Below are positions 8,014 to 52,100 of a stretch of 64,000 nt of DNA, one piece after another. Numbering within the stretch: position 1 is the first letter of the stretch; the number at the start of each line of letters is the position of its first letter. Position numbers and translations under genes: made by a program. The DNA comes from Taeniopygia guttata. Its lineage: Eukaryota; Chordata; Aves; Passeriformes; Estrildidae. The stretch covers positions 3,275,001 through 3,339,000 of the forward strand of contig NC_133059.1 in NCBI RefSeq assembly GCF_048771995.1, written 5' to 3'. The notes under the pieces were generated by a model. That model did no database searches and had not been told where the DNA came from. It saw only the letters and a list, made by a program, of their open reading frames with translations.

Positions 8014-11000
8014 GTAGCGGCGGGCAACGGCGGTTACCGGGGAGGGAGCCAAGGCGGGGAACGGCCGCCAACGGGGGCTGCCAAATAGGGAGCCATGGTG
8101 GGGAATGGGGGCTGCCATATTGGGAGCCGCTGAGGGCAGTGCGGGGTAACGGGGCTGCCAGATAGTGATCCATTGCCGGTAATGGGGCTGCCAGATTGGG
8201 ATCTGCCCCGGTTACCGGGGGATTAACGGGGGATAACGGGGACTGCCAGGTAGTGAGCTATGGGAGGGAAAGGGGGCTGCCAGATAGAGAGCCGGTGGGG
8301 GGAATGGGGGCTGCCAGATTGGGAGCCGCTGAGGGCAGTGCGGGGTAACGGGGCTGCCAGATAGTGATCCATTGGCGGTAATGGGGCTGCCAGATTGGGA
8401 GCTGCCCCGGTTACCGGGGAATAACGGGGGCTGCCAGATTGTGATCCATTAGCGGTAATGGGGGCTGCCAGATTGGGAGCCGCTGAGGGCAGTGCGGGGT
8501 AACGGGGCTGCCAGATGGTGATTCATTGGCGGTAATGGGGACTACCAGATTGGGATCCCCGCCGGTTAACGGGGATTAACGGGGACTGCCAGATAGTGAT
8601 CCATTGCCGGTAATGGGGCTGCCAGATTGGGAGCTGCCCCGGTTACCGGGGGATAACGGGGGCTGCCAGATAGTGATCCATTGGTGGTAATGGGGCTGCC
8701 AGATTGGGAGCTGCCCCGGTTACCGGGGATTAACGGGGGATAACGGGAGCTGCTAGCTAGTGAGCCATGGGAGGGAATGGGGGCTGCCAGATAGAGAGCC
8801 ATAGGGGGAATGGGGGCTGCCAGATAGAGAGCCATTGGCGGTAATGGGGGCTGCCAGATTGGGATCCCCGCCGGTTACCGGGGGATAACGGGAGCTGCCA
8901 GATAGTGATCCATTGGCGGTAATGGGGCTGCCAGATTGGGAGCTGCCCCGGTTACCGGGCGATAACGGGGGCTGCCAGATTGTGATCCATTAGTGGTAAT
9001 GGGGCTGCCAGATTGGGAGCTGCCCCGGTTAACGGGGGATTAACGGGGGATAACGGGGGCTGCCAGATAGTGATCCATTAGTGGTAATGGGGCTGCCAGA
9101 TTGGGAGCTGCACCGGTTACCGGGCATTAACGGGGGATAACGGGGGCTGCCAGATAGTGATCCATTGCCGGTAATGGGGCTGCCAGACTGGGATCTGCCC
9201 CGGTTACCGGGGGATAACGGGGGATAACGGGAGCTGCCAGATAGTGAGCCATGGGAGGGAATGGGGGTTGCCAGATTGGGATCCCCGCCGGTTACCGGGG
9301 ATTAACGGGGGATAACGGGAGCTGCCAGATTGTGATCCATTGCCGGTAATGGGGCTGCCAGATTGGGAGCTGCTCCGGTTAACGGGGATTAACGGGGGAT
9401 AACGGGAGCTGCCAGATAGTGATCCATTGCCGGTAATGGGGCTGCCAGATTGGGATCTATGGGGGGGCTGCCAGATGGGATCTGGCCACTCCTGACCTTT
9501 AGGACCTGGTCACTCCTGACTTTGCACTCCAGCCACCCCCACTCTTTGTGCTCTGGCCACTCCTGACCTTTAGGACCTGGTCATTCCCGGCCTTTAGGAC
9601 TTGGTCACTCCTGACCTTTGGGCTCTGGCCACCCCCAGCTTTAGGACCTGGTCACTCCTGAACTTTTGGATCCAGTCAGTCTTGACCTTTGTGCTCTGAC
9701 CACTCCCAGCTTTGGGACATGGTCACTCCTAAACTTTAGGATCTGGTCACTCCTGACCTTTGGGCTCTGGTCAGTCCCATCCTCTGGGATCTGGTCACTC
9801 CTGACCTTTGGCTCTGGCCACCCCCAGCTTTGGGACATGGTCACTCCTGAACTTTAGGACCTGGTCATTCCTGACCTTTAGGACCTGGTCACTCCTGACC
9901 TTTGGGCTTTGGTCAGTCCCATTCTCTGGGATCTGGCCACTCCTGACCTCTGGGACCTGGCCACTCCTGACCTTTAGGACCTGACCACTCCTGACCTTTA
10001 GGACCTGACCACTCCTGACCTTTGGGACCTGCCACTCCTGACCTTTAGGACCTGGCCACTCCTGACCTTTAGGACCTGGCCACTCCTGACCTTTGGGACC
10101 TGCCACTCCTGACCTTTGCACTCCGGCCACCGTTACTCTTTGCGATCCGGTCACTCCTGACCTTTGGGCTCTGGTCACTCTTGACCTTTAGGACCTGTCA
10201 CTCCTGACCTTTGGGCTCTGGCCACCCCCAGCTTTGGGACCTGGTCACTCCTGACCTCTGGGACCTGGTCATTCCTGACCTTTGCACTCCGGCCACCCTT
10301 ACTCTTTGTGCTCTGGCCACTCCTGACCTCTGTGACCTGGTCACTCCTGACCTTTGCACTCTGGCCACTGTTACTCTTTGGGATCTGGCCACTCCTGACC
10401 TTTGGGCTCTGGCCACTCCCAGCTTTGGGACCTGGCCACTCCTGACCTTTAGGACCTGGTCATTCCTGACCTTTGTGCTCTGACCACTCCCAGCTTTGCG
10501 CTCCAGCCACTCCTGACCTTTAGGACCTGGTCACTCCTGACCTTTAGGACCTGGCCACTCCTGACCTTTGCACTCCAGCCACTCCTCACTCCTTTTCCCC
10601 TCCATCCACCCCCTTCCCCATCCCCCCACACCCCTCCCCACGCCCCCCACACCCCCCCACACCTCCCCACACCCCCCCAACACGCCGGCCGGCTCTGTGC
10701 GGGCAGGCAAGGACTACGAGGAGGCGGTGAGGCTGTACAGCAGCGCCATCGAGCTGAACCCCACCTGCGCCGTCTACTATGGCAACCGCAGCCTGGCCTA
10801 CCTGCGCACCGAGTGCTACGGCTACGCCCTGGCCGACGCCACGCGCGCCCTGCAGCTGGACGCCAAGTACGTCAAGGGCTACTACCGCCGGGCGGCCAGC
10901 AACATGGCCCTGGGCAAGTTCAAGGCTGCCCTCAGGGATTACGAGATGGTGAGAGGGGCTGGGGTGGTCAGCGGGGTGCGTTTTGGGGTCAGCGGGTCCG

Positions 11001-14000
11001 TTCTGGGGTCAGGGTGTCCGTCCCGGGGTCATTGTGGGTGATCCAGGGTCAGTGTGTCCATCCTGGGGTCAGGGAAGAGCTCAGGACATCCCTGAGGTCA
11101 TTGTGTCCATCCCAGGGTCAGGGTGTCCATCCCGGAGTCATTGTGTTCATCCTGGGGTCAGGAGAGAGCTCAGGACATCCCTGAGGTCATTGTGTCCATC
11201 CTGGGGTCCATCCTGAGGTCATTGTGTCCATCCTGGGGTCAGCGTGTCCATCCCAGGGTCAGCGTGTCCGTCCCGGGGTCAGCGTGTCCATCCTGGGGTC
11301 AGGGTGTCCATCCTGGGGTCAGGGGAGAGCTCGGGACATCCCTAAGGTCATTGTGTCCATCCCGGGGTCATTGTGTCCATCCCGGGGTCAGGGTGTCCAT
11401 CAGGGTGGGTCACCAGCAACATGGCCCTGGGCAAGTTCAAGGCTGCCCTCAGGGATTACGAGATGGTGAGAGGGGCTGGGGTGGTCAGCGGGGTGCGTTT
11501 TGGGGTCAGGGGAACATCTCCAAGGTCATTGTGTCCATCCTGGGGTCAGGGAAGAGCTCAGGACATCCCTGAGGTCATTGTGTCCATCCCGGAGTCAGGG
11601 TGTCCATCCCGGGGTCAGCATGTCCGTCTCAGGGTCAGGGGATGGCTGGGAACATCCCCAAGGTCATTGTGTCCATCCTGGGGTCAGAGTGTCCATCCTG
11701 GGGTCAGGGTGTCCATCCCTGGGGTCAGGGGATGGCTGGGAACATCCCCAAGGTCATTGTGTCCATCCCGGGGTCAGCGTGTCGATCCCGGGGTCATTGT
11801 GTCCATCCCAGGATCAGCATGTCCATCTCAGGGTCAGGGAATGGCTGGGAACATCCCCAAGGTCAGGGTGTCCATCCTGAGGTCATTGTGTCCATCCCAG
11901 GGTCAGGGTGTCCATCCCGGGGTCAGTGTGTCCATCCCGGGGTCAGCGTGTCCATCCCGGGGTCAGCATGTCCATCGTGGGGTCAGCATGTCCATCCCGG
12001 GGTCAGCGTGTCCATCGTGGGGTCAGGGTGTCCATCCCAGGGTCAGGGTGTCCGTCCCGTGGTCAGGGTGTCCATCCTGGGGTCAGGGTGTCCATCCCGG
12101 GGTCAGGGTGTCCATCAGGGTGGGTCACCAGCAACATGGCCCTGGGCAAGTTCAAGGCTGCCCTCAGGGATTACGAGATGGTGAGAGGGGCTGGGGTGGT
12201 CAGCGGGGTCCGTTTTGGGGTCAGGGGATGGCTGGGAACATCTCCAAGGTCATTGTGTCCATCCTGGGGTCAGGGTGTCCATCCTGGGGTCAGTGTGTCC
12301 ATCCCAGGGTCAGCGTGTCCACCCCGGGGTCAGTGTGGGTGATCCGGAGTCAGCGTGTCCATCCTGGGGTCAGTGTGGGTGATCTGGCTCCCTCATGGGG
12401 TCATTGTGTCCATCCCGGGGTCAGGGTGTCCATCCTGGGGTCAGGGAAGAGCTCAGGACATCCCTGAGGTCAGTGTGTCCATCCTGGGGTCCATCCTAGG
12501 GTCAGGGTGTCCATCTTGGGGTCAGCATGTCCGTCCCGGGGTCAGGGGAGAGCTCGGGACATCCCTAAGGTCATTGTGTCCATCCCGGGGTCAGGGTGTC
12601 CATCCTGGGGTCATCGTGTCCATCCCGGGGTCAGGGTGTCCATCCTGTAGTCAGGGAAGAGCTCAGGACATCCCTCAGGTCATTGTGTCCATCCCGGGGT
12701 CAGGGTGTCCATCCCGGGGTCGGGGTGTCCATCCCGGAGTCATTGTGTCCATCCCGGGGTCAGGGGAGAGCTCGGGACATCCCTGAGGTCATTGTGTCCA
12801 TCCCGGGGTCAGGGTGTCCGTCCCGGGGTCATTGTGTCCATCCTGGGGTCAGCATGTCTGTCCCAGGATCAGGGTGTCCATCCTGCGGTCAGTGTGTCCA
12901 TCCCGGGGTCAGGGGAGAGCTTAGGACATCCCTGAGGTCATTGTGTCCATCCTGGGGTCAGGGTGTCCATCCTGGGGTCAGCGTGTCCATCCTGGGGTCC
13001 ATCCTGAGGTCATTGTGTCCATCCTGGGGTCAGGGGATGGCTGGGAACATCTCCAAGGTCATTGTGTCCATCCCGGGATCAGCGTGTCCATCCTGGGGTC
13101 CATCCTGAGGTCATTGTGTCCATCCCAGGGTCAGGGTGTCCATCCTGGGGTCATTGTGTCCATCCCGGGGTCAGCGTGTCCATCCTGGGGTCAGGGTGTC
13201 CATCCCGGGGTCAGCGTGTCCATCCTGGGGTCAGCGTGTCCATCCCGGGGTCAGGGTGTCCATCCCGGGGTCATTGTGTCCATCCCGGGGTCATTGTGGG
13301 TGATCCGGGGTCAGGGTGTCCATCCTGGGGTCAGGGGATGGCTGGGAACATCCCTGAGGTCATTGTGTCCATCCTGGGGTCAGGATGTCCATCCTAGGGT
13401 CAGCGTGTCCATCCCGGGGTCAGCGTGTCCGTCTCAGGGTCAGGGGATGGCTGGGAACATCCCCAAGGTCATTGTGTGCATCCCGGGGTCAGGGTGTCCA
13501 TCCCGGGGTCAGCATGTCTGTCCCAGGGTCAGTGTGTCCATCCCGGGGTCAGCGGGTCCATCCCAGGGTCAGCAGGTCCATCCCGGGGTCAGGGGATGGC
13601 TGGGAACATCCCTGAGGTCATTGTGTCCATCCCGGGGTCAGGGTGTCCATCCCGGGGTCAGCGTGTCCGTCCTGGAGTCAGGGGAGAGCTCAGGACATCC
13701 CTAAGGTCATTGTGTCCATCCCCAAGGTCATTGTGTCCATCCCGGGGTCAGTGTGTCCATCCCGGGGTCAGGGAAGAGCTCAGGACATCCCTGAGGTCAT
13801 TGTGTCCATCCCGGGGTCAGGGTGTCCATCCTGGGGTCATTGTGTCCATCCTGGGGTCATTGTGTCCATCCTGGGGTCAGTGTGTCCATCCCGGGGTCAG
13901 GGTGTCCATCCTGAGGTCAGGATTGGTTATGTAGGGTCAGGCTGTCCCCAGCTGTCCCCAGCTGTCCCCAGCTGTCCCCAGCTGTCCCCAGGCTGTCCCC

Positions 14001-17000
14001 AGCTGTCCCCAACCCTTCAGGCCATGTCCCCAACTGTCCCCGCTGTCCCCAGCTGTCCCCAACTCCTCAGGCCGTGTCCCCAGGCTGTCCCCGGGCTGTC
14101 CCTGCTGTCCCCAGCTGTCCCCAGCCCCTCAGGCCGTGTCCCCAGGCTGTCCCCACCTGTCCCCAGCTGTCCCCATGCCCTCAGGCCGTGTCTCCAACTG
14201 TCCCCAGGCTGTCCCCAACCCCTCAGGCCATGTCCCCAACTGTCCCCAGCTGTCCCCTTGCCCTCAGGCCGTGTCCCCAGGCTGTCCCCCGCTGTCCCCT
14301 GGCTGTCCCCCGCTGTCCCCAACTGTCCCCAGCTGTCCCCAGCCCCTCAGGCCATGTCCCCAGGCTGTCCCCAGCTGTCCCCAGCTGTCCCCAACCCCTC
14401 AGGCCGTGTCCCCAGGCTGTCCCCAGCCCCTCAGGCCATGTCTCCAGGCTGTCCCTGCTGTCCCCAGCTGTCCCCAACCCCTCAGGCCGTGTCCCCAGAC
14501 TGTCCCCAGCTGTCCCCAACTGTCCCCAGGCTGTCCCCAGGCTGTCCCCAATCGCTCAGGCCGTGTCCCCAGGCTGTCCCCAGCTGTCCCCGCTGTCCCG
14601 CAGGTGGTGAAGGTGCGGCCCAACGACAAGGACGCCAAGCTCAAGTACCAGGAGTGCCACCGCATCGTCAAGCAGAAGGCCTTCGAGAGGGCCATCGCCA
14701 GCGACGAGCACAAGCGCTCCGTGGTGGACTCGCTGGACATCGAGAGCATGAGTGAGCCCCGGGGGCGCTTCGGGGGGCGCTTGGGGGGCTCAGGGGGCAC
14801 TTTGGGGGGCACTTTGGGGGGTTCAGGGGGCACTTTGGGGGGCACTTTGGGGGGCTCAGGGGTCACTTTGGGGGGCTCAGGGGTCACTTTGGGGGGCACT
14901 TTGGGGGGCTCAGGGGTCACTTTGAGGGGCACTTTGGGGGGCTAAGGGGGCACTTTGGGGGGCTCAGGGGGCACTTTGGGGGGCACTTTGGGGGGCTCAG
15001 GGGTCACTTTGAGGGTTCAGGGGTCACTTTGGGGGATCAGGGGGCACTTTGAGGGGCTGAGGGGTCACTTTGGGGGGCTCAGGGGGCACTTTGGGCAGGC
15101 TCAGGAGTTACTTTGGGGGGCTGAGGGGTCAATTGAGGGGGTTCAGGCATCACTTGGAGGGCTCAGGGGGCACTTTGGGGGGCTAAGGGGTCACTTTGAG
15201 GGGCTCAGGGGTCACTTTGGGGGGCTGAGGGGTCACTATGGGGGGCTCAGGAGTCACTTGAGGGGGTTCAGGCATCACTTTGGGGGCTCAGGGGTCACTT
15301 TGAGGGCTCAGGGGTCACTTTGGGGGGCTCAGGTGTCACTTTGGGGGCTCAGGGGTTACTTTGGGGGGCTCAGGGGTCACTTTGGGGGGATCAGGGGTTA
15401 CTTTGGGGGGATCAGGGGTCACTTTGAGGGACTAAGGGGGCACTTCGGGGGGTTCAAGGGTCACTTTGGGGGCTCAGGGGTCACTTTGGGGGCTCAGGGG
15501 TGACTTTGGGGGGCTCAGGGGGCACTTTGGGGGGCTGAGGGGTCACTCTGGGGGGCTCAGGTGTCACTTTGGGGGTCTGGGGTCCTCACAAGGGTCCCTG
15601 GGGGGGTTCATGGGGTTCCCTGGGTGAGTCTGGGGTCTCCAGGAAGGTTCCTGGGAGGGTTTTGGGGACCCCACGAGGGTCTCTGGGAGGGTTTTGAGAT
15701 CCCCTGAGGGTCCCATGAGGGTTTTGGGGTCCCCTGAGGCTCTGGAGGTGCCCAGCTGAGCTTTTGTCCCCTTTGGAGTTCTTGGGGTCCCCAGCACCAG
15801 GGTCCCCATGCCAGGCCCAGCACCCCTGGGGGCACCTGTGGGGGCCGTGTCCCCTCTGTCCCCTCTGTCCCCTCGCTGTCCCCACATTGTCACCCCGCTG
15901 TCCCCACGCTGTCCTCGCTGTCCCCACGTTGTCACCCCGCTGTCAGCACCCTGTCACCCCTTTGTCACCCCTTTGACCCCTCGCTGTCCCCTCTGTCCCC
16001 CCACTGTCCCCTCTGTCACCCCGCTGTCCCCACGCTGTCCTCGCTGTCCCCACGCTGTCCTCTCCGTCCCCACGTTGTCACCCCACTGTCAGCACCCTGT
16101 CACCCCTCTGTCACCCCTCTGTCACCCCTCTGTCACCCCTCTGTCCCCCCTTTGTCACCCCTCTGTCCCCATGCTGTCCTCGCTGTCCCCACGTTGTCAC
16201 GCCGCTGTCCCCACCCTGTCACCCCTTTGTCACCCCTTTGTCACCCCTTTGACCCCTCGCTGTCCTCTCCATCCCCATGCTGTCCCTGCCCTGTTCCCAC
16301 TGTCCCCTCTGTCACCCCGCTGTCCCCACCTTGTCACCCCTCTGTCCCCCCTCTGTCACCCCTCTGTCCCCCCTCTGTCACCCCTTTGTCACCCCTCTGT
16401 CCCCGCTGTCCCCACGCTGTCCTTGCTGTCCCCACGTTGTCACCCCGCTGTCCCCACGTTGTCACCCCACTGTCAGCACCCTGTCACCCCTTTGTCACCC
16501 CTCTGTCCTCCCTCTGTCACCCCTCTGTCACCCCTCTGTTCCCTCTGTCCCCTCGCTGTCCTCGCTGTCCCCACGTTGTCACCCCGCTGTCCCCACGCTG
16601 TCCTCGTTGTCCCCATGTTGTCACCCCACTGTCAGCACCCTGTCACCCCTCTGTCACCCCTTTTTCACCCCTTTTTCACCCCTTTGTCACCCCTTTGTCA
16701 CCCCTCTGTCCCCCCTCTGTCACCCTCTGTCCCCTCTGTCCCCACAGCCATCGAGGACGAGTACAGCGGCCCCAAGCTGGAGGACGGCAAGGTCACCTTG
16801 GCCTTCATGAAGGACCTGATGCAGTGGTACAAGGACCAGAAGAAGCTCCACAGGAAATGTGCCTACCAGGTACCCCAAAACCCCCCAAAACCCCCCAAAA
16901 AACCCCCCAAAAACCCCTCTGTCCCCTCTGCCACCCCGCTGATGTCCCCACAATGTGTCCCCCCACGGTCCCGCAGATCCTGGTGCAGGTGAAGGAGGTG

Positions 17001-20000
17001 CTGGCCAAGCTTCCCACCCTGGTGGAGACCACCTTGAAGGAGGTGGGTGGGTTCCTCCGGCTGGGGGGTGGTCTCGGGGGGCGCGCCCTCGGTGTGTGGG
17101 GGGGTGTCCCCTCGTGCCGGCGCGGTGACACCGGTGCCGCCGCCTGTCCCCACCCCGGCAGACGGAGAAGGTGACGGTGTGCGGGGACACCCACGGGCAG
17201 TTCTACGACCTGCTGAACATCTTCGAGCTCAACGGGCTCCCCTCCGAGGCCAACCCTTACGTATCCACGCCTGGGGGGTCCCTTGGGTGGGGTGGCACGG
17301 GGGGGGGACACTGGGGACACTCCGGGCTGGGGGTCGTCGTCCTCAGCTGGTGACAGATTTTCAACGGGGACTTCGTGGACCGCGGCTCCTTCTCGGTGGA
17401 GGTCATCCTGACGCTCTTTGGCTTCAAGCTGCTCTACCCCGAGCACTTCCACCTGCTCCGAGGTAGGCCCAGGGCCTGGGGGGGCGAGGTCTGGGCCGGG
17501 GGTGTCCCCACAGCTGTCCCCTGGTGTCCCCTGGTGTCCCCTGGTGTCCCTGGGTCACTATCTGGCAGCGCCTGTTGTAGGGGGTGGGTCACTTTCTGGC
17601 AGATCTTGTAAAAGGGGAGGTTTTGTCACCCTTGGGGTTGGGGACAACCCTGTCCCTTGGGGTTGGTGACATCCCTGTCCCTTGGGGATGTCCCTGTCCC
17701 CTTGGGGTTAGGGACATCCCTGTCCCTTGGGGTTGGGGACATCCCTGTCCCCTTGGGGTTGGGGACATCCCTGTCCCTTGGGGTTGGTGCCATCCCTGTC
17801 CCCTTGGGGTTGGTGCCATCCCTGTCCCTTGGGGTTGGGGACATCCCTGTCCCCTTGGGGTTGGTGACATCCCTGTCCCATTTGGGGTTGGTGCCATCCC
17901 TGTCCCTTGGGGTTGGGGACATCCCTGTCCCCTTGGGGTTGGTGACATCCCTGTCCCTTGGGGTTGGGGACATCCCTGTCCCCTTGGGGTTGGTGACATC
18001 CCTGTCCCATTTGGGGTTGGGGACATCCCTGTCCCTTGGGGTTGGGGACATCCCTGTCCCTTGGGGACATCCCTGTCCCTTGGGGTTGGTGACATCCCTG
18101 TCCCCTGGGTTGGGGACATCCCTGTCCCTTGGGTTTGGTGACATCCCTGTCCCCTTGGGGTTGGGGACATCCCTGTCCCCTTGGGGTTGGGGACATCCCT
18201 GTCCCCTTGGGGTTGGTGACATCCCTGTCCCTTGGGGTTGGTGACATCCCTGTCCCCTTGGGGTTGGGGACATCCCTGTCCCCTTGGGGTTGGTGACATC
18301 CCTGTCCCCTTGGGGTTGGGGACATCCCTGTCCCCTTGGGGTTGGTGACATCCCTGTCCCCTTGGGGTTGGGGACATCCCTGTCCCCTTGGGGTTGGGGA
18401 CATCCCTGTCCCCTTGGGGTTGGGGACATTCCTGTCCCCTTGGGGTTGGGGACATCCCTGTCCCCTTGGGGTTGGGGACATCCCTGTCCCCATGGGGTTG
18501 GGGACATCCCTGTCCCTTGGGGTTGGGGACATCCCTGTCCCCTTGGGGTTGGGGACATCCCTGTCCCTTGGGGTTGGGGACATCCCTGTCCCATTTGGGT
18601 TGGGGACATCCCTGTCCCCTTGGGGTTGGGGACATCCCTGTCCCTTGGGGTTGGGGACATCCCTGTCCCTTGGGGTTGGGGACATCCCTGTCCCATTTGG
18701 GTTGAGTGTGCCCAGGAGTGGCAGTTGTCCCCAACCCCAGGCGGTGTCCCCAGCCCTGGGCGGTGTCCCCAACCCCGGGCAGTGTCCCCAGCCCCGGCAA
18801 TGTCCCCAGCAGTGGCAGTTGTCCCTGTGCGGTGTCCCCAACCCTGGGCAGTGTCTCCAGCCCCAGGCAGTGTCCCCAGCAGTGGCAGCTGTCCCCAGCA
18901 GTGGCAGCTGTCCCCAGCAGTGGCAGTGTCCCCAGCAGTGGCAGCTGTCCCCAGGAGTGGCAGTGTCCCCAGCAGTGGCAGCTGTCCCCAGCAGTGGCAG
19001 TGTCCCCAGCAGTGGCAGCTGTCCCCAGGAGTGGCAGTTGTACCTGGGCAGTGTCCCCATCCCTGGGCGGTGTCCCCAACCCCAGGTGGTGTCCCCAGCC
19101 CTGGGTGGTGTCCCCAGGAGTGGCACTTGCCCCAGGAGTGGCAGCTGTCCCCAGCAGTGGCAGTTGTCCCCAACCCCGGGCAGTGTCCCCAGCAGTGGCA
19201 GTGTCCCCAGCAGTGGCAGTTGTCCCCAACCCCGGGCAGTGTCCCCAGCAGTGGCAGTGTCCCCAGGAGTGGCAGTGTCCCCGGGCAGTGTCCCCAGCAG
19301 TGGCAGTGTCCCCAGGAGTGGCAGTGTTCCCGGACAGTGTCCCCAGCAGTGGCAGTGTCCCCGGGCAGTGTCCCCGGGCAGTGTCCCCAGGAGTGGCAGT
19401 GTCCCCGGGCAGTGTCCCCGGGCAGTGTCCCCAGCAGTGGCAGTGTCCCCAGCAGTGGCAGCTGTCCCCAGCAGTGGCAGTGTCCCCGGGCAGTGTCCCC
19501 AGCAGTGGCAGTGTCCCCAGGAGTGGCAGTTGTCCCCGGGCAGTGTCCCCAGCAGTGGCAGTTGTCCCCAGGAGTGGCAGTTGTCCCCGGGCAGTGTCCC
19601 CATACCTGGGCAGTGTCCCCAGGAGTGGCAGTGTCCCCAGCAGTGGCAGCTGTCCCCAGGAGTGGCAGTGTCCCCGGGCAGTGTCCCCAGCAGTGGCAGT
19701 GTACCCAGGAGTGGCAGCTGTCCCTGTGCGGTGTCCCCAACCCCGGGCAGTGTCCCCAGGAGTGGCAGTGTCCCCGTGTCCCCTCAGGGAACCACGAGAC
19801 GGACAACATGAACCAGATCTACGGCTTCGAGGGCGAGGTGAAGGCCAAGTACACGGCGCAGATGTTCGCCCTCTTCAGCGAGGTCTTCGAGTGGCTGCCC
19901 CTGGCCCAGTGCATCAACGGCAAAGTGCTGGTGAGGGGACACGAGGGGACACGAGGGGACACCGAGGGGACATTGCCACCGGGCTCAGTATCTGGCAGAT

Positions 20001-25116: not shown

Positions 25117-25555
25117 CCCCCATCCCGCGTGGGGAGGGGTCCCCACGACCCCCTCCCCACCCCAAAAAATCAACCCCGACCCCCCCCCAAAAAACCCAGC
25201 ACCCCCCAGGGGGGTTTTAATATATTGGAAGATTGTATTTATTCCCCTCCCCCCCCCAGTGCTCCCAGTGCTCCCAGTTTGGGGCAGGAGGGGCTGGGGG
25301 CGGCACCTCCCGGGGTGGGGGTGGGGTGGGGGGGGTCCTGGAAATTTGGGGGGGTTTGGGGGGGGGTTCCCCTCTGGCACTGCCCCTCCCCCCCAAAAAA
25401 AAGCCCCCAAAATGAGCAATAGGTGCAAAGAGGAGGAGGAAGGGAGGGGGGAGGGGAGAGGGGGGGGGTCCCGTGCCGCCCCTCCCCCTCCTCTCCCCCC
25501 ACCCCCCCCCCCCGCCGTGCGGTTTTACCATCTCTGTAATTAATTAATCACGTTC

Positions 25556-25561
25556 AATAAA
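25556..25561 (+). terminator. PPP5C: PPP5C poly(A) signal AATAAA
   Basis: Canonical AATAAA in an AT-rich patch (TTAATTAATCACGTTCAATAAAG) split here as TTAATTAATC and CGTTCAATAAAG, about 440 nt after the stop. It is the only such hexamer in the PPP5C 3' region. Confidence 0.85.
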
Positions 25562-25606
25562 GTTAATTAAAAGCGGCTTCGTTAAGAGCCGCCCCCCCCC
25601 CCGCCG

Positions 25607-25677: not shown

Positions 25678-25684
25678 GGGGATG

Positions 25685-27598: not shown

Positions 27599-27659
27599 AG
27601 GAGAGCGGAGCGCCGCCGCTGGTCCCGCCCCCAACCGAGAGCGTCGGACGGGTCTGAAA

Positions 27660-28762: not shown

Positions 28763-28764
28763 AT

Positions 28765-29500: not shown

Positions 29501-29559
29501 TCCCCACATCCCCTATACCCCATAGCCCCCCATAGCCCCCCTACGCCCCCCATAGCCCC

Positions 29560-30970: not shown

Positions 30971-31096
30971 CCCCCTCGCCCCCGTCAGCCCAAAAGTGGG
31001 GGGGGGGTCCATCCCCCCCAAACCCCCCCCAAACCCCCCCCAAGCCCCCCCAAACCCCCCCTAACCCCCCCCGTCCCCTCCCCCCCAGGCCTCGCC

Positions 31097-31229
31097 ATGA
31101 CCAAGGAGCGCGGGGGGGACCCCCCGGCGGGGGGGGCGCCGCCCCCCGACCCCCCCAGCCCGGTGGTGGAGCGGCGCAAGAAGCCGATGGTTCACCCCGC
31201 CGCCCCCGCCCCCCTGCCCAAGGACTACG
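31097..31229 (+). CDS. CLIP3: CLIP3 exon 2, start codon exon
   Basis: ATG lies 8 nt after the acceptor at 31088 in the context CTCGCCATGACC. It encodes residues 1-44, a proline-rich acidic head ending [17 protein letters not shown], and finishes in phase 1 before GTGAGA. Confidence 0.97.
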
Positions 31230-37121: not shown

Positions 37122-37167
<46 letters not shown>

Positions 37168-40100: not shown

Positions 40101-43100
40101 CCGTGCCTCAGTTTCCCCCGGGATTTTTGGGATTTTTGGGATTCCCCCCATACATCCACCACCCCCTGCCCTATTTGGGGTTCCCCGTGCCTCAGTTTCC
40201 CCCTTATATTTGATGGTTTAGGGGTCCCCTTGTGCCCCGTGCCTCAGTTTCCCTCTCTGCTTTTGGCATTTTTGAGGTTTCCCCATGACCGTGCCTCAGT
40301 TTCCCCCGGGATTTTTGGGATCCTCCTTGGTTTTTAGGATCCCCCGTTCACCTATAACCCCCCCCCATGATTTTTGGGGTTCCCCGTGCCTCAGTTTCCC
40401 CCTACATTTGGCAGTTTTGGGGTCCCACCCGTGCCCTGTGCCTCAGTTTCCCTCTCTGCTTTTGGCGTTTTTGAGGTTTCCCCATGACCGTGCCTCAGTT
40501 TCCCCCGGGATTTTTGGGATCCCCCTCGGGTTTTTAGGATCCCCCGTTCACCTATAACCCCCCACCATGATTTTTGGGGTTCCCCGTGCCTCAGTTTCCC
40601 CCCAAGCACCCCGAATTTCCCCGCAGTTCTGCACTCCACCTGCAGCGATTTCAGCCACGGCACCGCTCTGCACATCGCGGCCTCCAACCTGTGCCTGGGG
40701 GCGGTGCGCTGCCTGCTGGAGCACGGCGCCGACCCCGCCCTCAGGGTACGGGGGGATTTTGGGGGGTCCTGGGGGGTCTTTTTGGGGTGGGGGGCTCAGG
40801 GGGGGTCGGGGGATTTGGGGGAATTTGGGGGAGATTGGGGAAATTTGGGGGAATTTGGGGTTTGGGGTTTGGGGCGCTGCCTGCTGGAGCACGGGGCCGA
40901 CCCCGCCCGCAGGGTATGGGGCGATTTTGGGGGGTCCTGGGGGGTTTTGAGGGGATTTTGGGGGGTCCTGGGAGGTCTTTTTGGGGTGGGGGGCTCGGGG
41001 GGACTCGGGGGATTTGGGGGAATTTGGGGGAGATTGGGGAAATTTGGGGGAATTTGGGGTTTGGGGTTTGGGGTTGGGGGCGCTGCCTGCTGGAGCACGG
41101 GGCCGACCCCGCCCTCAGGGTATGGGGGGATTTTGGGGGGTCCTGGGGGGTTTTGAGGGGATTTTGGGGGGTCCTGGGGTTTTTTTTTGGGGTGGGGGGC
41201 TCGGGGGGGGTCGGGGGATTTGGGGGAGATTGGGGAAATTTGGGGGAATTTGGGGTTTGGGGTTTGGGGTTGGGGGCGCTGCCTGCTGGAGCACGGGACC
41301 GACCCCGCCCTCAGGGTACGGGGGGATTTTGGGGGGTCCTGGGGGGGCTTTTTGGGGTGGGGGGCTCGGGGGGGCTCGGAGGATTTGGGGGAATTAGGGG
41401 GAGATTGGGGAAATTTGGGGGAATTTGGGGTTTGGGGTTTGGGGTTGGGGGCGCTGCCTGCTGGAGCACGGGGCCGACCCCGCCCTCAGGGTACGGGGCG
41501 ATTTTGGGGGGTCCTGGGGGGTTTTGGGGGGGATTTTTGGGGGTCCTGAGGTTTTTTTTTGGGGTGAGGGCTCGGAGATTTGGGATGGATCAGGGATTTT
41601 GGGGGAATTTGGGGTTTGGGGTTGGGGGCGCTGCCTGCTGGAGCACGGGGCTGACCCCGCCCTCAGGGTACGGGGCGATTTTGGGGGGTCCTGGGGGGTC
41701 TTTTTGGGGTGGGGGGCTCGGGGGGGGTCGGGGGATTTGGGGGAGATTTGGGCGGATTTGGGGTTTGGGGTTTGGGGTTGAGGGCGCTGCCTGCTGGAGC
41801 ACGGGGCCGACCCCGCCCTCAGGGTATGGGGCGATTTTGGGGGGTCCTGGGGGTCTTTTAGGGGATTTTGGGGGGTCCTGGGGTTTTTTTTGGGGTGGGG
41901 GGCTCGGGGGGACTCGGGGGATTTGGGGGAGATTGGGGAAATTTGGGTGAATTTGGGGTTTGGGGAGGGGGCGCTGCCTGCTGGAGCACGGGGCCGACCC
42001 CGCCCTCAGGGTACGGGGGGATTTTGGGGGGTCCTGGGGGTCTTTTTGGGGTGGGGGGCTCGGGGAGGGGTCGGGGGATTTGGGGGAGATTTGGGCGGAT
42101 TTGGGGTTTGGGGTTTGGGGTTGGGGGCGCTGCCTGCTGGAGCACGGGGCCGACCCCGCCCTCAGGGTATGGGGGATTTTGGGGGGTCCTGGGGGGTTTT
42201 TTTGGGGTGGGGGGCTGGGGGGGGTCGGGGGATTTGGGGTAATTTGGGGGAGATTGGGGAAATTTGGGGGAATTTGGGGTTGGGTGCGCTGCCTGCTGGA
42301 GCACGGGGCCGACCCCGCCCTCAGGGTACGGGGCGATTTTGGGGGGTCCTGGGGGTCTTTTTGGGGTGGGGGGCTCGGGGGGGGGTCGGGGAATTGGGGA
42401 TGGTTCAGGGATTTTGGGGAAATTTGGGGGAATTTGGGGTTTGGGGTTGGGGGCGCTGCCTGCTGGAGCACGGGGCCGACCCCGCCCTCAGGGTACGGGG
42501 GGATTTTGGGGGGTCCTGGGGGGTTTTGGGGGGATTTTGGGGGGTCCTGGGCCCAAAATTGTCCTGGACTTCCCCTGGGGAGCCACCAGACCACCTTTGG
42601 TCACCTTTGGCCACCTTTGGCCACCTTTGGCCACCAGATGGGGGGTCCTGAAGGGGTTTTGGGGTCCTGGGCACAAAGGGGGGATTTGGGGGGTCCTGGG
42701 GATACAATGGGGGGTCCTGAGGGGTTTTGGTGGCACCAAAACCTCCGGAGACCCGGAAAATCCTGTGCTTCCCCTGGGGAGCCACCAGGCCACCTTTGGC
42801 CACCTGTGGTCACCTGTGGCTTCTGTGGCCACCATCCTGGAGGGGTTTTGGGGGTCCTGGGGGACTCAATGGGGGTGTTCTGGGGTGGTTTGGTGCCACC
42901 AAAACCTCCGGAGAGCCAGAACATCCCGGGCTTCACCTGGGGAGCCACCAGGCCACCCATGGCCACCTTTGGCCACCTTTGGCCACCAGATGGGGGGTCC
43001 TGATGTGGTTTCGGGGTCCTGGGGACAAAGGGGGGATTTGGGGGATCCTGGGGACAAAAGGGGGATTTGGGAGGTCCTGGGGACACAATGGGGGGTTTCC

Positions 43101-46100
43101 TGGGACCAAAATTGTCCTGTGCTTCCCCTGGGGAGCCACCAGGCCACCCTTGGCCACCTTTGGCCACCTTTGGCCACCAGATGGGGGGTCCTGATGGGGT
43201 TTGGGGGTCCTGGAGATAAAGGGGGGATTTGGGGGGTCCTGGGGACACAATGGGGGGTTCCTGAGGGGTTTTGGTGGCACCAAAACCTCCATGGACCCGA
43301 ATTGTCCCAGGCTTCACCTGGGGAGCCACCAGGCCACCTTTGGCCACCTATGGTCACTTATGGTCACTGTGGCCACCAGATGGGGGGTCCTGATGGGGTT
43401 TGGGGGTCCTGGGGACACAATGGGGGGGTCCTGAGGGGTTTTGGTGACACCAAAACCTCCACGGACCCGAATTGTCCTGTGCTTCCCCTGGGGAGCCACC
43501 AGGCCACCCTTGGCCACCTTTGGCCACCTTTGGCCACCAGATGGGGGGTCCTGATGGGGTTTGGGGGTCCTGGGGACTCAGTGGGGGGTTCCTGAGCGGT
43601 TTTGGTGGCACCAAAACCTCCGGAGACCCGGAACATCCCGGGCTTCCCCTGGGGAGCCACCAGGCCACCTTTGGCCACCTTTGGCCACCTGTGGCCACCT
43701 TTGGCCACCAGATGGGGGGTCCTGATGGGGTTTCGGGGTCCTGGGAACACAATGGGGGGGTCCTGGGGACAAAGGGGGGATTTGGGGGGTCCTGGGGGAC
43801 ACAATGGGGGGTTCCTGAGGGGTTTTGGTGCCACCAAAACCTCCAGAGAGCCGGAACATCCTGTGCTTCCCCTGGGGAGCCACCAGGCCACCTTTGGCCA
43901 CCCTTGGCCACCTTTGGCCACCTTTGGGTACCTGTGGCCACCAGATGGGGGGTCCTGATGGGGTTTGGGGGTCCTGGGGACAAAGGGGGGATTTGGGGGG
44001 TCCTGGGGACACAATGGGGGGTGTCCTGAGGGGTTTTGGTGGCACCAAAACCTCCATGGACCCGAATTGTCCCTGGCTTCCCCTGGGGGGCCACCAGGCC
44101 ACCTTTGGGTACCTTTGGCCACCTTTGGCCACCTTTGGCCACCTGTGGCTTCTGTGGCCACCATCCTGGAAGGGTTTTGAGGGTCCTGGGGATACAATGG
44201 GGGGGTCCTGAGGGGTTTTGGTGCCACCAAAACCTCCAGAGACCCGGAATATCCTGGGCTTCGCCTGGGGAGCCACCAGGCCACCTTTGGGTACCTGTGG
44301 CCACCTTTGGCCACCTGTGGTCACCTTTGGCCACCTTTGGTCACCTGTGGCTTCTGTGGCCACCATCCTGGAGGGGTTTTGGGGGTCCTGTGGACACAAT
44401 GTGGGGGTCCTGAGGGGTTTTGGTGCCACCAAAACCTCCGGAGACCTGGAACATCCCGGGCTTCCCCTGGGGAGCCACCAGGCCACCTTTGGCCACCTTT
44501 GGCCACCTTTGGCCACCTTTGGCCACCTTTGGCCACCTTTGGCCACCTTTGGCCACCTTTGGCCAGGCGTGGCCACCTCAGACCTGTCCCTTGTCGCCCC
44601 CCGCAGAACAGCAAGGGCCAGGTGGCGGCGGAGGTGGTGCCGGACCCCACGGACATGGCGCTGGACCGGGCGGAGGCGGCGGAGGCGGCGCGGGAGCTGC
44701 GGCGGCTGCTGCTGGACGCGGTTCCGCTGAGCTGCAGCCTGCCCCGCGTCACCCTGCCCAACTACGACAACCTGCCCGGCACGCTGATGCTGCTCTGCCT
44801 GGGGCTGCAGCTGGGGGACCGGGTCAGGCTGGACAGCGGCAAGGTGTGTGTGTCACCTGTGTCACCTGTGTGTCACCCCCATGTCACCTGTGTCACCTGT
44901 GTGTCACCTGTGTCACCTGTGTCAACCTAAATCTGACCCATGCCAGCCCAAACCTGCCCCGTGTCATCCTAAACCTGCCCTGTGTCACCCCTGTGTCACC
45001 TGTGTCACCTGTGTGTCACTCTAAACCTGCCCTGTGTCACCTGTGTGTCACCTGTGTCACCCTAAACCCACCCCTGTGTCACCTGTGTCACCCCAAACCT
45101 GCCCCATGTCAGCCCAAACCTGCCCCGTGTCAGACCAAACCTGCCCTGTGTCACCTGTGTCACCTGTGTCAACCTAAACCTGCCCCGTGTCATCCTAAAC
45201 CTGCCTCATGTCACCTGTGTGTCACCTGTGTCATCCCTGTGTCACTCTAAACCTGCTCCGTGTCAGCCCAAACCTGCCCTGTGTCACCTGTGTGTCACCT
45301 GTGTGTCACCTGTGTCACCCCAGACCTGCCCCATGTCATCCTAAACCTGCCCCATGTCACCCCTGTGTCACCTGTGTCACCTGTGTGTCACCTGTGTCAC
45401 CCTAAACCTGCCCCGTGTCACTCTAAACCTGCCTCATGTCACCCTTGTGTCACCTGTGTCATCCCTGTGTCAACCTAAACATGCCCCATGTCATCCTAAA
45501 CCTGCCCCATGTCACCCCTGTGTCACCTGTGTCACCTGTGTGTCACCTGTGTCACCTGTGTGTCATCCCTGTGTCACTCTAAACCTGCCCCGTGTCAGCC
45601 CAAACCTGCCCCATGTCACTCTAAACCTGCCTCATGTCACCCTTGTGTCACCTGTCACCTGTGTGTCACCTGTGTCACCTGTGTCACCCCAAACCCGCCC
45701 CATGTCACCCCCGCGTCACCCTGCCCAACTACGACAACCTGCCCGGCACGCTGATGCTGCTCTGCCTGGGGCTGCAGCTGGGGGACCGGGTCAGGCTGGA
45801 CAGCGGCAAGGTGTGTGTGTCACCTGGGTCACCTGTGTGTCACCTGTGTCACCTGTGTGTCACGTGTGTCACTCTCAACCTGCCCCATGCCAGCCCAAAC
45901 CTGCCCTGTGTCACCCCTGTGTCACCTGTGTGTCACCTGTGTGTCACCTGGGTCACCTGTGTCATCCCTGTGTCACTCTCAACCTGCCCCATGTCAGCCC
46001 AAACCTGCCCCATGTCATCCTAAACCTGCCCCATGTCACCCCTGTGTCACTCTAAACCTGCCCCATGTCATCCTAAACCTGCCCCATGTCACCCCTGTGT

Positions 46101-49100
46101 CACCTGTCACCTGTGTCACCTGTGTCACCCCTGTGTCCTGTGTGTCACCTGTGTCACCCCCTGTGTCACCTGTGTGTCACCCCCGTGTCACCTGTGTCTC
46201 CTGTGTCACTCCTGTGTCACCTGTGTTAACCTAAATCTGCTCCGTGTCACCTGTGTCACGCCTGAGTCACCTGTGCCACCTGTGTCACCATGTCACCTGT
46301 GCCACCTGTGTCACACCTGTGCCACCTGTGTCACCTGTGTCACCTGTGCCACCTGTGTCATCCCAATGTCACCATGTCACCCATGTCACCTGTGTCACAC
46401 CTGTGTCACCTGTGTCACCCGTGTCACCTGTGTCATCCCAATGTCACCGTGTCACCTGTGTCACCTGTGTGACCCCAGAGGTCCCGGTGTCACCCAGGGC
46501 CAGGCCGTTTTTGGGGTCCAGGTGTCACCCAGGTGTCCCCGTGCCAGGTGGGCACGCTGCGGTTCTGCGGCACCACGGCCCGTGCTGGGATTTTGGAGTT
46601 TGGGATTTTGGGGTTTGGGGTTTTTGTAGGAGTTTTGTAGGATTTTGGTTTTTGGGGTTTAGGTTTTTCTGTAGGACTTGGGTTTTTTTGGGGCGTTTTT
46701 GGGGTATTTTGGGGTGCCGTTTTTGGGGTCCAGGTGTCACCCAGGTGTCCCCGTGCCAGGTGGGCACTCTCCGGTTCTGCGGCACCACGGCCCGTGCTGG
46801 GATTTTGGGGTTTGGGATTTTTGTAGGATTTGGGTTTTTGGGGTTTGGGATTTTTGTAGGATTTGGGGTTTTTTTGGGGCGTTTTTGGGGTATTTTGGGG
46901 TCTGGTTTTGGGGTCCAGGTGTCACCCAGGTGTCCCCGTGCAGGTGGGCACGCTGCGGTTCTGCGGCACCACGGCCCGTGCTGGGATTTTGGGGTTGGGA
47001 TTTTTGTAGGATTTTGGGTTTTTTTCAGGACTGGGTTTTTTTGGGGTGTTTTTGGGGTATTTTGGGGGTGCCGTTTTTGGGGTCCAGGTGCCACCCAGGT
47101 GTCCCCGTGCCAGGTGGGCACTCTCCGGTTCTGCGGCACCACGGCCCGTGCTGGGATTTTGGGGTTTGGGGTTTTGGGGTTTAGGTTTTTCTGTAGGATT
47201 TGGGGTTTTTTTGGGGTGTTTTTGGGGTATTTTGGGGTGCTGTTTTTGGGGTCCAGGTGTCAGCCAGGTGTCCCCGTGCAGGTGGGCACGCTGCGGTTCT
47301 GTGGCACCACGGCCCGTGCTGGGATTTTGGGGTTTGGCATTTTGGGGTTTGGGATTTTGGGGTTTAGGTTTTCCTGTAGGATTTGGGGTTTTTTGGGGCG
47401 TTTTTGGGGTATTTTGGGGTGCTGTTTTTGGGGTCCAGGTGTCACCCAGGTGTGCCCGTGCAGGTGGGCACTCTCCGGTTCTGCGGCACCACGGCCCGTG
47501 CTGGGATTTTGGGGTTTGGGATTTTTGTAGGATTTGGGGTTTTTTTTAGGACTGGGGTTTTTTGGGGTGTTTTTGGGGTATTTTGGGGGTGCCGTTTTTG
47601 GGGTCCAGGTGTCACCCAGGTGTCCCCGTGCAGGTGGGCACGCTGCGGTTCTGTGGCACCACGGCCCGTGCTGGGATTTTGGGGTTTGGGGTTTTTGTAG
47701 GAGTTTGGTTTTTGGGGTTTGGGATTTTTGTAGGATTTGGGGGTTTTTGGGGCGTTTTTGGGGTATTTTGGGGTGCTGTTTTTGGGGTTCAGGTGACACC
47801 CAGGTGTCCCCGTGCAGGTGGGCACGCTGCGGTTCTGCGGCACCACGGCCCGTGCTGGGATTTTGGGGTTTGGGATTTTGGGGTTTGGGATTTTTGTAGG
47901 ATTTTGGGTTTTTTTCAGGATTGGGTTTTTTTGGGGCGTTTTTGGGGTATTTCGGGGGTCTGTTTTTGGGGTTCAGGTGACACCCAGGTGTCCCCGTGCA
48001 GGTGGGCACGCTGCGGTTCTGCGGCACCACGGCCTTCGCCAGCGGGCAGTGGGCCGGGGTGGAGCTGGACGAGCCCGAGGGGAAGAACGACGGCAGCGTG
48101 GGGGGGGTGCGCTACTTCATCTGCCCCCCCAAAACCGGTACGGGACCCCCGGGACCCCCTGAGACCCCCTGGGACCCCCCAAAACCCCCCGGGACCCCCG
48201 GGACCCCCCGAGACCCCCCGGGACCCCCTGAGACCCCCCGGGACCCCCGAGGACCCCACAGGACCCCCAGGGAACCCCCAGGACCCCATGGGAACCCCTG
48301 AAATGGGGTTGGGACCCCTTGAGACCCCCCAGGATCCCCCAAGACCACCCAGGACCCCACGGGACCCCCTGAAATGGGGTTGGGACCCCCTGGGACCACA
48401 CGGGACCCCCCGGGACCCCCTGGGAACCCCCAGGACCCCCCGGGACCCCACGGGAACCCCTGAAATGGGGTTGGGACCCCCCAAGACCCCCCGGAACCCC
48501 CTGGGACCCCTCAAAACCCCGCCGGACCCCTGGGAACCCCTGGGGTTCCCTGGGACCCCCTGAAATGGGGTTGGGACCCCCTGAGACCCCCCAGGACCCC
48601 CCAAGACCACCCAGGACCCCCTGAGACCCCCCGGGACCCCCCGAAACCCCCCGGGACCCCTGGAAACCCCCGAGACCCCACAGGACCCCCAGGGAACCCC
48701 CGGGACCCCACGGGAACCCCTGAAATGGGGTTGGGACCCCCTGGGAGCCCCCAAGACCACCCAGTACCCCCCAGGACCCCCTGGGACCCCACAGGACCCC
48801 GGGACCCCCAGGGACTCCCTGAAATGGGGTTGGGACCCCCCAAGACCCCCCAAGACCCCCTGGGACCCCTCAAAACCCCTCCGGACCCCTGGGAACCCCT
48901 GGGACCCCCTGAAATGGGGTTGGGACCCCCTGGGACCACACGGGACCCCCTGGGAACCCCCGAGACCCCCCAGGACCCCCTGAAATGGGGTTGGGACCCC
49001 CCGAAACCCCCCGGGACCCCTGGAAACCCCCAAGACCCCACAGGACCCCCAGGGAACCCCCGGGACCCCACGGGACCCCCTGAAATGGGGTTGGGACCCC

Positions 49101-52100
49101 CAGGGACCCCCCAGGACCCCCCAAGACCACCCAGGACCCCCCATACTGGTTTATACTGGGTTATACTGGGTTATACTGGGTTATACTGAGCCATACTGGG
49201 TTATACTGGTTTGTACTGGTTTGTACTGGTTTGTACTGGGCCATACTGGGTTATACTGGGCTATACTGGGCCATACTGGGCCATACTGGGTTATACTGGG
49301 CCATACTGGGTTATACTGGGTTATACTGGGTTATACTGGGTTATACTGGGTTATACTGGGCCATACTGGGTTATACTGGGCTATACTGGGTTATACTGGG
49401 TTACACTGGGTTATATTGGGTTATACTGGGCCATACTGGGTTATATTGGGTTATACTGGGTTATACTGGGTTATACTGGGCCATACTGGGTTATACTGGG
49501 TTATACTGGGTTATATTGGGCCATACTGGGTTATAGTGGGTTATACTGGGTTATACTGGGTTATACTGGGCCATACTGGGCTATACTGGGTTATACTGGG
49601 TTATACTGGGCCATACTGGGTTATACTGGGTTATACTGGTTTGTACTGGGCCATACTGGTTTATACTGGGTTATACTGGGTTATACTGGGTTATACTGGG
49701 TTATACTGGGTTATATTGGTTTATACTGGGTTATACTGGGTTATACTGGGTTATACTGGGTTATACTGGGTTATACTGGGCCATACTGGTTTATACTGGG
49801 TTATACTGAGTTATACTGGGTTATACTGGGTTATACGGGGTTATACTGGGTTATACTGGGTTATACTGGTCCATACTGGTTTATACTGGTCTGTACTGGT
49901 TTATACTGGTCCGTACTGGCCACAGGCGTCTTCGCCTCGGTGTCCCGGATCTCCAAGGTCGAGGAGCAGCCGCCGGCCCCGTCGCCCCCCCCGAGCCCCC
50001 CGGGACCCCCGGCACGAGCCCCCCACAAATCCCGCAAGGACAAGAGAGGTACGGACCCCCCAAAATCCCCCAAAACCCCCCCAAAATCCCCTAAAACCCC
50101 CCCAAAACTCAGGGGAACCCCAAAATCTGCAGGGAACCCCCCAGAAAATACAGGGGAACCCCAAGATCCGCGGGGAACCCCCCAAAATACAGGGGAACCA
50201 CCCAAAATTCAGGGGAACCCCAAAATCCGTGGGGAATCCCCCGGAAAATTCAGGGGAACCCCAAAATCGGGGGGACCCCCCAAAATACAGGGGAACCCCA
50301 AAAATCCCAGGAACCCCCCAAAAAATACAGGGGAACCACCCCAAAAATCCTGGGAACCACCCAAAATCCAGGGGAACCCCAAAATCCGCGGGGAACCCCA
50401 AAAATACAGGGGAACCCCAAAAATCCCCAAAATTCAGGCGGACCACCAAAAATCCACGGGGACCCCCAAAAATCCGCTAAAACTCCCCAAAATCCCAGGG
50501 GACTCCCAAAATCCCCTAAAACCACCAAAACTCCCAGGGGACTCCCAAAATCCAGGGGAACCCCCCCAAAATCTGGGGGGAGCACCCCAAGGGTTGGGCG
50601 TGGCTGGGCGTGGTCGCGATGGGCGTGGCCGAGATGGGCGTGGTGGGGCGTGGTCAATATGGGCGTGACCGAGATGGGCGTGGCCGGGATGGGCGTGGTC
50701 TGCGTGGCCCCGCCCCCAGGAACCCGGAAGCGCGCGGGGGCGTGGCTAGGATGGGTGTGTCCGGAGTGGGCGTGGTCTGTATGGGTGTGTCCGAGATGGG
50801 CGTGGCTAGGATGGGCGTGGCAGGGCGTGGTCAGTCTGGCCCCGCCCCCAGGGTCCCGGAAGCGCGCGGGGGCGTGGCTGGGATGGGCGTGGTCACGATG
50901 GGCGTGGCTAGGATGGGTGTGGCCGATATGGGCGTGGCCGGGATGGGCGTGGCCGGGCGTGGTCAGCGTGGCCCCGCCCCCAGGGTCCCGGAAGCGCGCG
51001 GGGGCGTGGCTGGACCGCGAGGGGCGGCGCGTGGCGCCCGGGGACGCGGTGCTGGTGGCGGGACAGCGGCGGGGCCGGGCCCGGTTCTACGGCCGCACCG
51101 ACTTCGCCCCCGGTGAGACCCCCGACCCGCCGAGACCCTGACCCACATTGAGAGACCCCGACCCACATTGAGAGACCCCCGTCCACCGAGACCCTCGCCC
51201 ACGGAGAGACCCACCCACGGAGACCCCCACCCACGGAGAGACCCCGACCCACCGACAGACCCACCCACTGAGGGACCCCCACCCACACTGAGAGACCCCA
51301 ACCCACGGAGAGACCCCAACCCACGGAGAGAGACCCTGACCCACAGAGAGACCCCAACCCATGGAGACCCCAACCCACTGAGAGACCCCAACCCACCGAG
51401 ACCCCCCCCAGAATGGGACCCCCTTGAGGCACCCCCAGGACCCCCGGGATGGGACCCCCACGCTAGGATGGGACCCTCCGAGACCCCCCTGTGACACCCA
51501 ATGTCCCCAATGTCCCCAATGTCCCCCCAATGTCCCCAATGTCCCCCAATGTCCCCAATGTCCCCAATGTCCCCCCAATGTCCCCAATGTCCCCCAATGT
51601 CCCCAATGTCCCCAATGTCCCCAATGTCCCCCCAATCCCCCCAATGTCCCCAATGTCCCCAATCCCCCCAATGTCCCCAATGTCCCCCAATGTCCCCAAT
51701 GTCCCCAATGTCCCCAATGTCCCCCCAATCCCCCCAATGTCCCCAATGTCCCCAATGTCCCCCCAATCCCCCCAATGTCCCCAATGTCCCCAATGTCCCC
51801 AATGTCCCCAATGTCCCCCCAATCCCCCCCAATGTCCCCACTGTCCCCAATGTCCCCAATGCCCCCAATGTCCCCACTGTCCCCAATGTCCCCAATGCCC
51901 CCAATGTCCCAAATCCCCCCAATGTCCCCAATGCCCCCAATGTCCCCAATGTCCCCAATCCCCCCAATGTCCCCAATGTCCCCAATGTCCCCAATGTCCC
52001 CAATCCCCCCAATGTCCCCAATGTCCCCAATGTCCCCCCAATGTCCCCAATGTCCCCAATGTCCCCAATGTCCCCAATGTCCCCAATCCCCCCAATGTCC

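Follow-up and report, generated by a model that had tools for sequence, protein, structure and literature searches.

The window analysed here is a 64 kb stretch of the Taeniopygia guttata genome (contig NC_133059.1, positions 3,275,001 to 3,339,000 of the forward strand) in which three plus-strand genes, PPP5C, CLIP3 and CAPNS1, could be rebuilt exon by exon, and in which the ends of six exons of the first two, each with its splice site, recur as extra copies inside the neighbouring introns. The window has a G+C content of 62% and tandem repeats extend over 83% of it, with the arrays reported by Tandem Repeats Finder (TRF) occupying 91.2% of intron bases and 2.7% of exon bases. Despite the exon-end copies the reading frames of PPP5C and CLIP3 are intact. 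Positions are those of the window throughout, and CLIP3 exons are numbered as in the first-pass annotation of this stretch, the count running as it would with a 5′ non-coding exon in first place; exon 4 is our C4 and so forth.

All six captured ends and their copies lie on the plus strand. In PPP5C, the tail of exon 2 (10896-10948, as delimited by the exon-only BLASTN described below) is the source of two copies at 11413-11465 and 12128-12180, each identical to it over 53/53 bases and followed by a copied donor, and both lie in or beside a minisatellite of roughly 20-bp units at 10984-13921, the main TRF rows of which are 10984-11401 and 11564-13921. In CLIP3, the donor region of exon 4 (source junction 36877/36878) has a single copy at 37027-37074 that consists of 10 exon and 38 intron bases. 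The tail of exon 6 (40706-40745, again from the exon-only BLASTN) recurs with its donor in ten copies between 40874 and 42551, the latter being the array end given by TRF, at a spacing of 156-206 bp and with exon parts that end at 40913, 41119, 41315, 41490, 41667, 41823, 42010, 42166, 42325 and 42492. The tail of exon 7 (44742-44843, same screen) has one copy at 45709-45810, identical over 102/102 bases and likewise followed by a copied donor. The acceptor and 33-bp head of exon 8 are present in eight copies within 46507-48034, with exon parts starting at 46548, 46760, 46944, 47114, 47282, 47464, 47634 and 47818, and the acceptor and head of exon 10 in two copies, with exon parts starting at 50720 and 50852, within a 132-bp array at 50606-51013. 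For both of these exons the real head (48002-48034 and 50984-51013, respectively) forms the last unit of the TRF array.

This inventory comes from two screens. In the first, queries of 40 + 40 bases around the 62 junctions of the 34 exons and 31 introns of PPP5C, CLIP3 and CAPNS1 were searched within 5 kb, and matches of at least 30 bits that included about 6 bases on either side of the junction were retained. The search returned 24 extra copies at six junctions, namely two, one, ten and one at the donors of PPP5C exon 2 and CLIP3 exons 4, 6 and 7, and eight and two at the acceptors of CLIP3 exons 8 and 10, which are the very counts given by the first-pass annotation. All 24 are direct copies that lie within the adjacent intron and run across the exon-intron junction; within the 5 kb searched, no copies were found at the other 56 of the 62 junctions, the 14 junctions of CAPNS1 showed no exon-edge copies, and no inverted copy was seen. 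Crossing of the junction is required by the filter of this search, yet all 23 above-threshold matches of the second, unfiltered screen belong to the same junctions. That screen, modelled on the published one for exon stuttering (Hron et al. 2026, PMC12954441), compared 33 exons (without CAPNS1 exon K3) by BLASTN with the introns of their own gene, considering matches of at least 20 bp with a threshold of 42.1 bits and using ten rounds of intron shuffling as the noise control; the top score in shuffled introns was 34.2 bits. Of 29 matches of at least 20 bp, 28 lie in adjacent introns, and the 23 that score at least 42.1 bits are without exception in the adjacent intron and on the plus strand, 22 of them touching the exon border and the remaining one lying 3 bases off. 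No above-threshold copy of these 33 exons was found in distal introns. The CLIP3 exon 4 case, with only 10 exon bases in its 48-bp match, falls below the exon-only threshold. Both screens therefore bear out the earlier statement that the captured pieces cross the junction, lie on the intron side and keep the orientation of the gene.

Exon ends are set apart from exon interiors by the fact that every piece of at least 42.1 bits sits at an exon edge or 3 bases from one. The only interior-only matches are a single pair, from exon C9 to its upstream intron, that scores 32-34 bits, consists of proline-codon low complexity and does not rise above the shuffle maximum. The contrast does not come out of a control based on exonic 20-mers, in which 89/1196 match the adjacent intron at 0-19 bases from the nearest junction, 49/894 at 20-39, 23/530 at 40-59, 20/237 at 60-79 and 6/271 at 80 bases or more, with none on the minus strand; this control alone fails to separate edge from interior because the captured pieces reach up to 102 bases inward.

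Comparison of the copies within each family indicates how the arrays grew. The inner breakpoint, at which copied tails start and copied heads end, is at exon base 80 in nine of the ten exon 6 copies and at base 77 in the other, at base 33 in each of the eight exon 8 copies, at base 190 in both PPP5C exon 2 copies, and at bases 28 and 30 in the two exon 10 copies. Furthermore, all ten exon 6 copies have in common one base that is absent from the exon, and two subtypes, one exon-like and the other with two changes, take turns along most of the exon 8 series, from which it follows that growth took place inside the array. Each multi-copy family thus seems to go back to a single founding capture, followed by multiplication within the array, partly as two-unit blocks. 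As the long unit of the exon 6 and exon 8 arrays always includes the exon piece, capture probably coincided, or nearly so, with the origin of that unit. PPP5C intron 2 and CLIP3 intron 7 present a different picture, their arrays being built of much shorter units among which exon pieces are rare: in the former, two exon pieces lie next to TRF rows that comprise about 20 and 112 units of twenty bases, and in the first part of the latter one exon 7 piece lies among 76 TGTCACC motifs before 46500. The same comparison bears on the possibility that consensus or graph errors in repeats created the extra copies, which is judged here from the assembly alone. The identity of the PPP5C exon 2 and CLIP3 exon 7 copies to their exons over 53 and 102 bp would suit such an artefact; against it, the nine full exon 6 copy units all differ from one another, as do the eight exon 8 units, the two PPP5C copies stand in different array contexts, and the repeat structure of chicken PHF8 introns is described in the main text of PMC12954441 as confirmed by raw nanopore reads. 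We consider an artefact very improbable.

The first-pass annotation went on to suggest that arrays begin to grow at splice sites or slide across them, a suggestion that the placement of the arrays does not support. Distances from junction to array end range from -102 to +280 with a median of 11 bases, and only 5/56 fall at 0-2 bases, so that no clustering of array ends at the junction is seen (the six negative values were taken from the screens and all others from TRF, and for another six junctions the intron contains no array). As a null model, the TRF arrays of the 31 introns were grouped into 91 families and placed uniformly over all placements that keep the coding sequence intact. The number of captures of at least 10 bp expected in this way is 4.7 with present intron lengths, 15.3 with introns capped at 500 bp and 37.9 with introns capped at 120 bp, the last corresponding in length to the six scarcely expanded introns, and the number observed is six; with a limit of 20 bp the expectations are 3.8, 12.8 and 31.9, and five are observed. 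Rough as this estimate is, it gives no sign of an excess of captures at exon edges. The arrays of PPP5C intron 2 and CLIP3 intron 7, composed mostly of units without exon sequence, also speak against growth that begins at splice sites.

These results weigh equally on the idea that exon edges are true hotspots, made unstable by their splice sites through co-transcriptional splicing, or through R-loops or G-quadruplexes near donors. Arrays do come close to most junctions, as the median distance shows, donors make up four of the six captured junctions, and the captured junctions tend to have G-rich flanks on the coding strand (median skew 0.27 versus -0.04, P = 0.076). The scarcity of array ends at the junction itself, a count of captures not above the uniform expectation, G-quadruplex counts that show no significant difference (P = 0.17 and 0.14) and the guest status of the exon pieces in the short-unit arrays of two introns all run against it, and we regard splice-site-triggered instability as decidedly unlikely. 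G-quadruplexes or strand asymmetry were likewise rejected as a cause, the captured junctions not being significantly different in either respect, and an exon-edge hotspot was dropped as unnecessary, six captures lying within the 4.7-37.9 expected.

Another way in which breakpoints might be directed into exons is homology-driven exchange, whereby the exon would break where it resembles the intronic unit and recombine through short homologies. The exon 7 breakpoint does fall at an array-like stretch (8% of exon positions are as good), and that of exon 10 lies near GGGCGTGGCTGG, which the array resembles (11% as good). At exon 6 (33%), PPP5C exon 2 (75%), exon 4 (77%) and exon 8 (100%) there is less resemblance or none, and with only two of six breakpoints standing out, general microhomology was rejected as a rule for exon breakpoints. 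We find such exchange rather doubtful as the explanation of the locus.

We propose instead that tandem duplication in minisatellite-filled introns, together with selection on the coding sequence, explains the exon-end copies, and we consider this explanation likely to be correct. Occasionally, a duplication with a unit of about 130-970 bp would break on one side inside an exon and on the other inside the intron. The resulting array would then read, in order, exon body, repeated units of exon end plus intron start, and the rest of the intron, with the first unit completing the exon. As the outermost splice site would still join it correctly, the exon would remain whole and selection would tolerate the duplication. 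The remaining units would stay behind in the intron, every one of them with its exon end and splice site. Later duplication within the array would multiply the captured piece, as may have happened where ten and eight copies are found, or leave it at one or two. A purely exonic duplication would alter the protein and a purely intronic one would be an ordinary minisatellite. Copies would thus be direct, intronic and junction-spanning because the duplication is tandem and the protein has to be kept, wherever the breakpoints fall, which is a matter of reasoning and not of measurement. At the locus itself the geometry of the copies is tandem and the genuine exons are intact; selection would act as the filter, each family would descend from one founding capture, and the molecular step could be replication slippage, template switching or unequal exchange. 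In-frame length differences are found in CLIP3, where Ammospiza has six more residues in the Pro-Ser stretch of exon 2 (31089-31229) and ostrich six more in exon 10 (50984-51112). Judging from these sequences, exon length seems to change where this is tolerated, as if exonic duplication were permitted in linkers.

The sizes involved are also consistent with passive overlap, the chance of which is expected to grow with unit length. Units that carry an exon end measure 132-967 bp, set against a median period of 32 in the 91 families, of which 20 are at least 132, and they sit in longer introns (P = 0.018). Three points weigh against the proposal. First, the difference in unit length (Mann-Whitney P = 0.0016) comes from a test that sets copy spacings of our own choosing against TRF periods, with the capturing arrays included among the 91 families. 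Second, the uniform expectation depends on how long the introns were when capture took place and on the way in which TRF families are tallied, so that a modest preference for edges is possible. Third, for PPP5C exon 2 and CLIP3 exon 7, an identical exon block beside varied array sequence (0.28-0.98) can be reconciled with a one-time duplication of the complete unit only if the array turns over fast.

The last point rests on the divergence of the copies along their length. The exon 7 copy is identical over its 102 bp, after which successive 50-base bins show identities of 0.76, 0.76, 0.58 and 0.40, and later bins 0.63-0.88; the same array compared with itself at random offsets gives 0.64, around the level of the bins beyond the copy. 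In PPP5C the exon block of the copies is identical and the 50-base bins beside it range from 0.28 to 0.98. Among nine of the ten exon 6 copies nucleotide diversity (pi) is 0.017 in the exon part (3/40 positions variable) versus 0.081 in well-aligned intron columns (14/61; Fisher P = 0.057), and in the eight exon 8 copies the two parts differ little (0.046 in exon and 0.062 in intron). Furthermore, six of the ten distinct changes in the copies are synonymous, versus 29-33% expected (P 0.04-0.07 depending on mutation weighting). The lower divergence of the exon-derived blocks and this synonymous lean are a lead and not a result, the numbers being too small to decide. Fast turnover of the array could explain the low divergence of the exon blocks, and gene conversion would explain it together with the synonymous lean. 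Exons and their intronic copies might then exchange sequence, the copies staying near-identical while the array turns over, differences being filtered by coding selection, and the intron serving as a reservoir for write-back into the exon, by which proteins could change fast or genes decay on dot chromosomes; we rate this exchange as unlikely. Frequent conversion at exon 6 is argued against by the base in which all ten copies differ from the exon, and that shared change may have arisen in the exon itself, where mainly silent changes survive.

The copies could also be read as functional decoys or alternative splice sites kept by selection. The copies displayed retain their GT or AG, the extensions from the two exon 10 decoy acceptors (132 and 264 nt) keep the frame and contain no stop, and the first exon 6 decoy donor is reached in frame before any stop. 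Indeed, read-through of CLIP3 exon 6 remains open for 408 nt and its first decoy donor lies 168 nt on, so that use of this donor could, judged by reading frame, produce a 56-residue insertion. Elsewhere the frames do not favour such a role: for PPP5C exon 2 and CLIP3 exons 4 and 7 a stop precedes the decoy donor on read-through, all eight exon 8 extensions hit a stop or shift the frame, and open stretches of 264 nt are common in the array that neighbours exon 10 (413/620 windows). No repeated 8-residue peptide or second captured exon end was found in 14 CLIP3 proteins (13 from birds and one from alligator, out of 120 listed), in a search of annotated proteins that may lack such isoforms if annotation pipelines miss them. 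Selection for decoys we hold to be exceedingly improbable. As a separate observation, either of the exon 10 decoy acceptors (50720-51112) would add stop-free, in-frame sequence, of 44 or 88 residues; these were considered as a new coding element and rejected, open frames being common there.

The gene models on which these analyses are based are as follows. PPP5C (7896-25116, plus strand) has 13 coding exons with GT/AG borders that join into an open frame of 498 codons, at 7896-8013, 10707-10948, 14604-14751, 16748-16869, 16977-17042, 17162-17260 and 17357-17462 for exons 1-7 and 19788-19930, 21468-21555, 21676-21716, 22805-22983, 23852-23933 and 25054-25116 for exons 8-13, and takes its name from a match to solved phosphatase 5 across residues 17-498. 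CLIP3 (31089-55066, plus strand) has 13 coding exons, C2-C14, with GT/AG borders and a frame of 528 codons, and is named by its matches to bird CLIP3 proteins, with identities of 96% to Ammospiza sparrows, the nearest, 88% to ostrich and 76% to alligator. CAPNS1 (58286-63188, plus strand), which matches the calpain small subunit, is mapped as eight joined exons, K2-K9, with its 3′ end lying beyond. The locus probably lies on a dot microchromosome, and its base composition and repeat density are consistent with such a position.

Several features of the introns may be noted alongside. Six of the 31 introns are still only 96-120 bp long, with 0-45% tandem array (16870-16976, 17043-17161, 17261-17356, 21556-21675, 61006-61121 and 61187-61305), and the others measure 451-4001 bp; the short ones may represent intron size before expansion. 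A 41-bp unit repeated about 69 times fills one CLIP3 intron, at 32792-35649. In PPP5C, sixteen bases at the start of intron 10 (21718-21733) recur just upstream of exon 10 (21641-21656), on the opposite side of the exon, and this repeat is possibly the relic of a duplication that took in the 41-bp exon 10. Outside the three genes, a low-copy island with open frames at 727-880, within the first 7 kb, is possibly the end of an upstream gene.

Where the first-pass annotation saw a recurrent mutational mode without a named description, the mode is borne out and a name exists. The exon-end copies of PPP5C and CLIP3 are a case of exon stuttering, published for avian dot chromosomes in February 2026 by Hron et al. 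(PMC12954441), whose main text reports it in chicken for 236 introns of 115 genes, with 190 of these introns on dot chromosomes. There, more than 90% of sources are within one base of the exon border, exon parts measure 20-187 bp in 1-44 copies, and 183/192 such introns vary in length. As in that description, a lateral part of the exon with its donor or acceptor stands in direct tandem in the adjacent intron, the exon is intact and the intron is full of local repeats. Here, the 23 matches of at least 42.1 bits lie in adjacent introns above a shuffle maximum of 34.2, their sources are at the border in 22 cases and 3 bases away in one, 24/24 copies carry the junction with its splice site, and heavy cover by simple repeats is seen in the 91.2% of intron bases in TRF arrays. 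What differs is the host, a songbird here and the chicken there, and the present work goes beyond the published description in its base-level anatomy (breakpoints, subtypes, frames) and in an account by coding selection set against a uniform expectation. Hron et al. speculate on replication stress, DNA quadruplexes and meiotic conversion. Absent from the main text of PMC12954441 are the words 'selection', 'slippage', 'purifying' and 'microhomology', and we believe that the account by coding selection is not made in those terms there. Nor does that main text name PPP5C, CLIP3 or CAPNS1, its gene list being in a supplementary figure. A literature search found 'exon stuttering' or 'sequence stuttering' in no other paper, and no closer description as judged by title or start of abstract.

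Two further systems invite comparison. Intronic minisatellites, or variable number tandem repeats, consist of head-to-tail units that grow by duplication within the array; growth here is similar, with periods mostly of 9-210 bp, and what sets the present arrays apart is a unit that includes coding sequence and a splice site. The other is intron gain by tandem genomic duplication (PMC4974935), in which a gene likewise acquires a splice signal for a second time through tandem duplication. The outcome there is a new intron, whereas here an intron already present becomes longer and the coding sequence stays as it was. No new intron in a former exon is apparent in our genes, in which the virtually spliced frames are intact and CLIP3 aligns over 100% of its length with the Ammospiza, ostrich and alligator proteins, a comparison made at the protein level.

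The apparent preference for splice sites is most simply what remains of unselective tandem duplication after coding selection. Our model supplies a null expectation in which the look of attraction to splice sites arises from uniform tandem duplication minus the events that change the protein, and the pattern thereby becomes measurable. A genome-wide count above the uniform expectation would indicate a real hotspot; if there is none, exon ends would be passive recorders of intron instability. The exon-end copies can also assist in working out the order in which each array grew, and they provide ready-made substrates for exchange between exon and intron.

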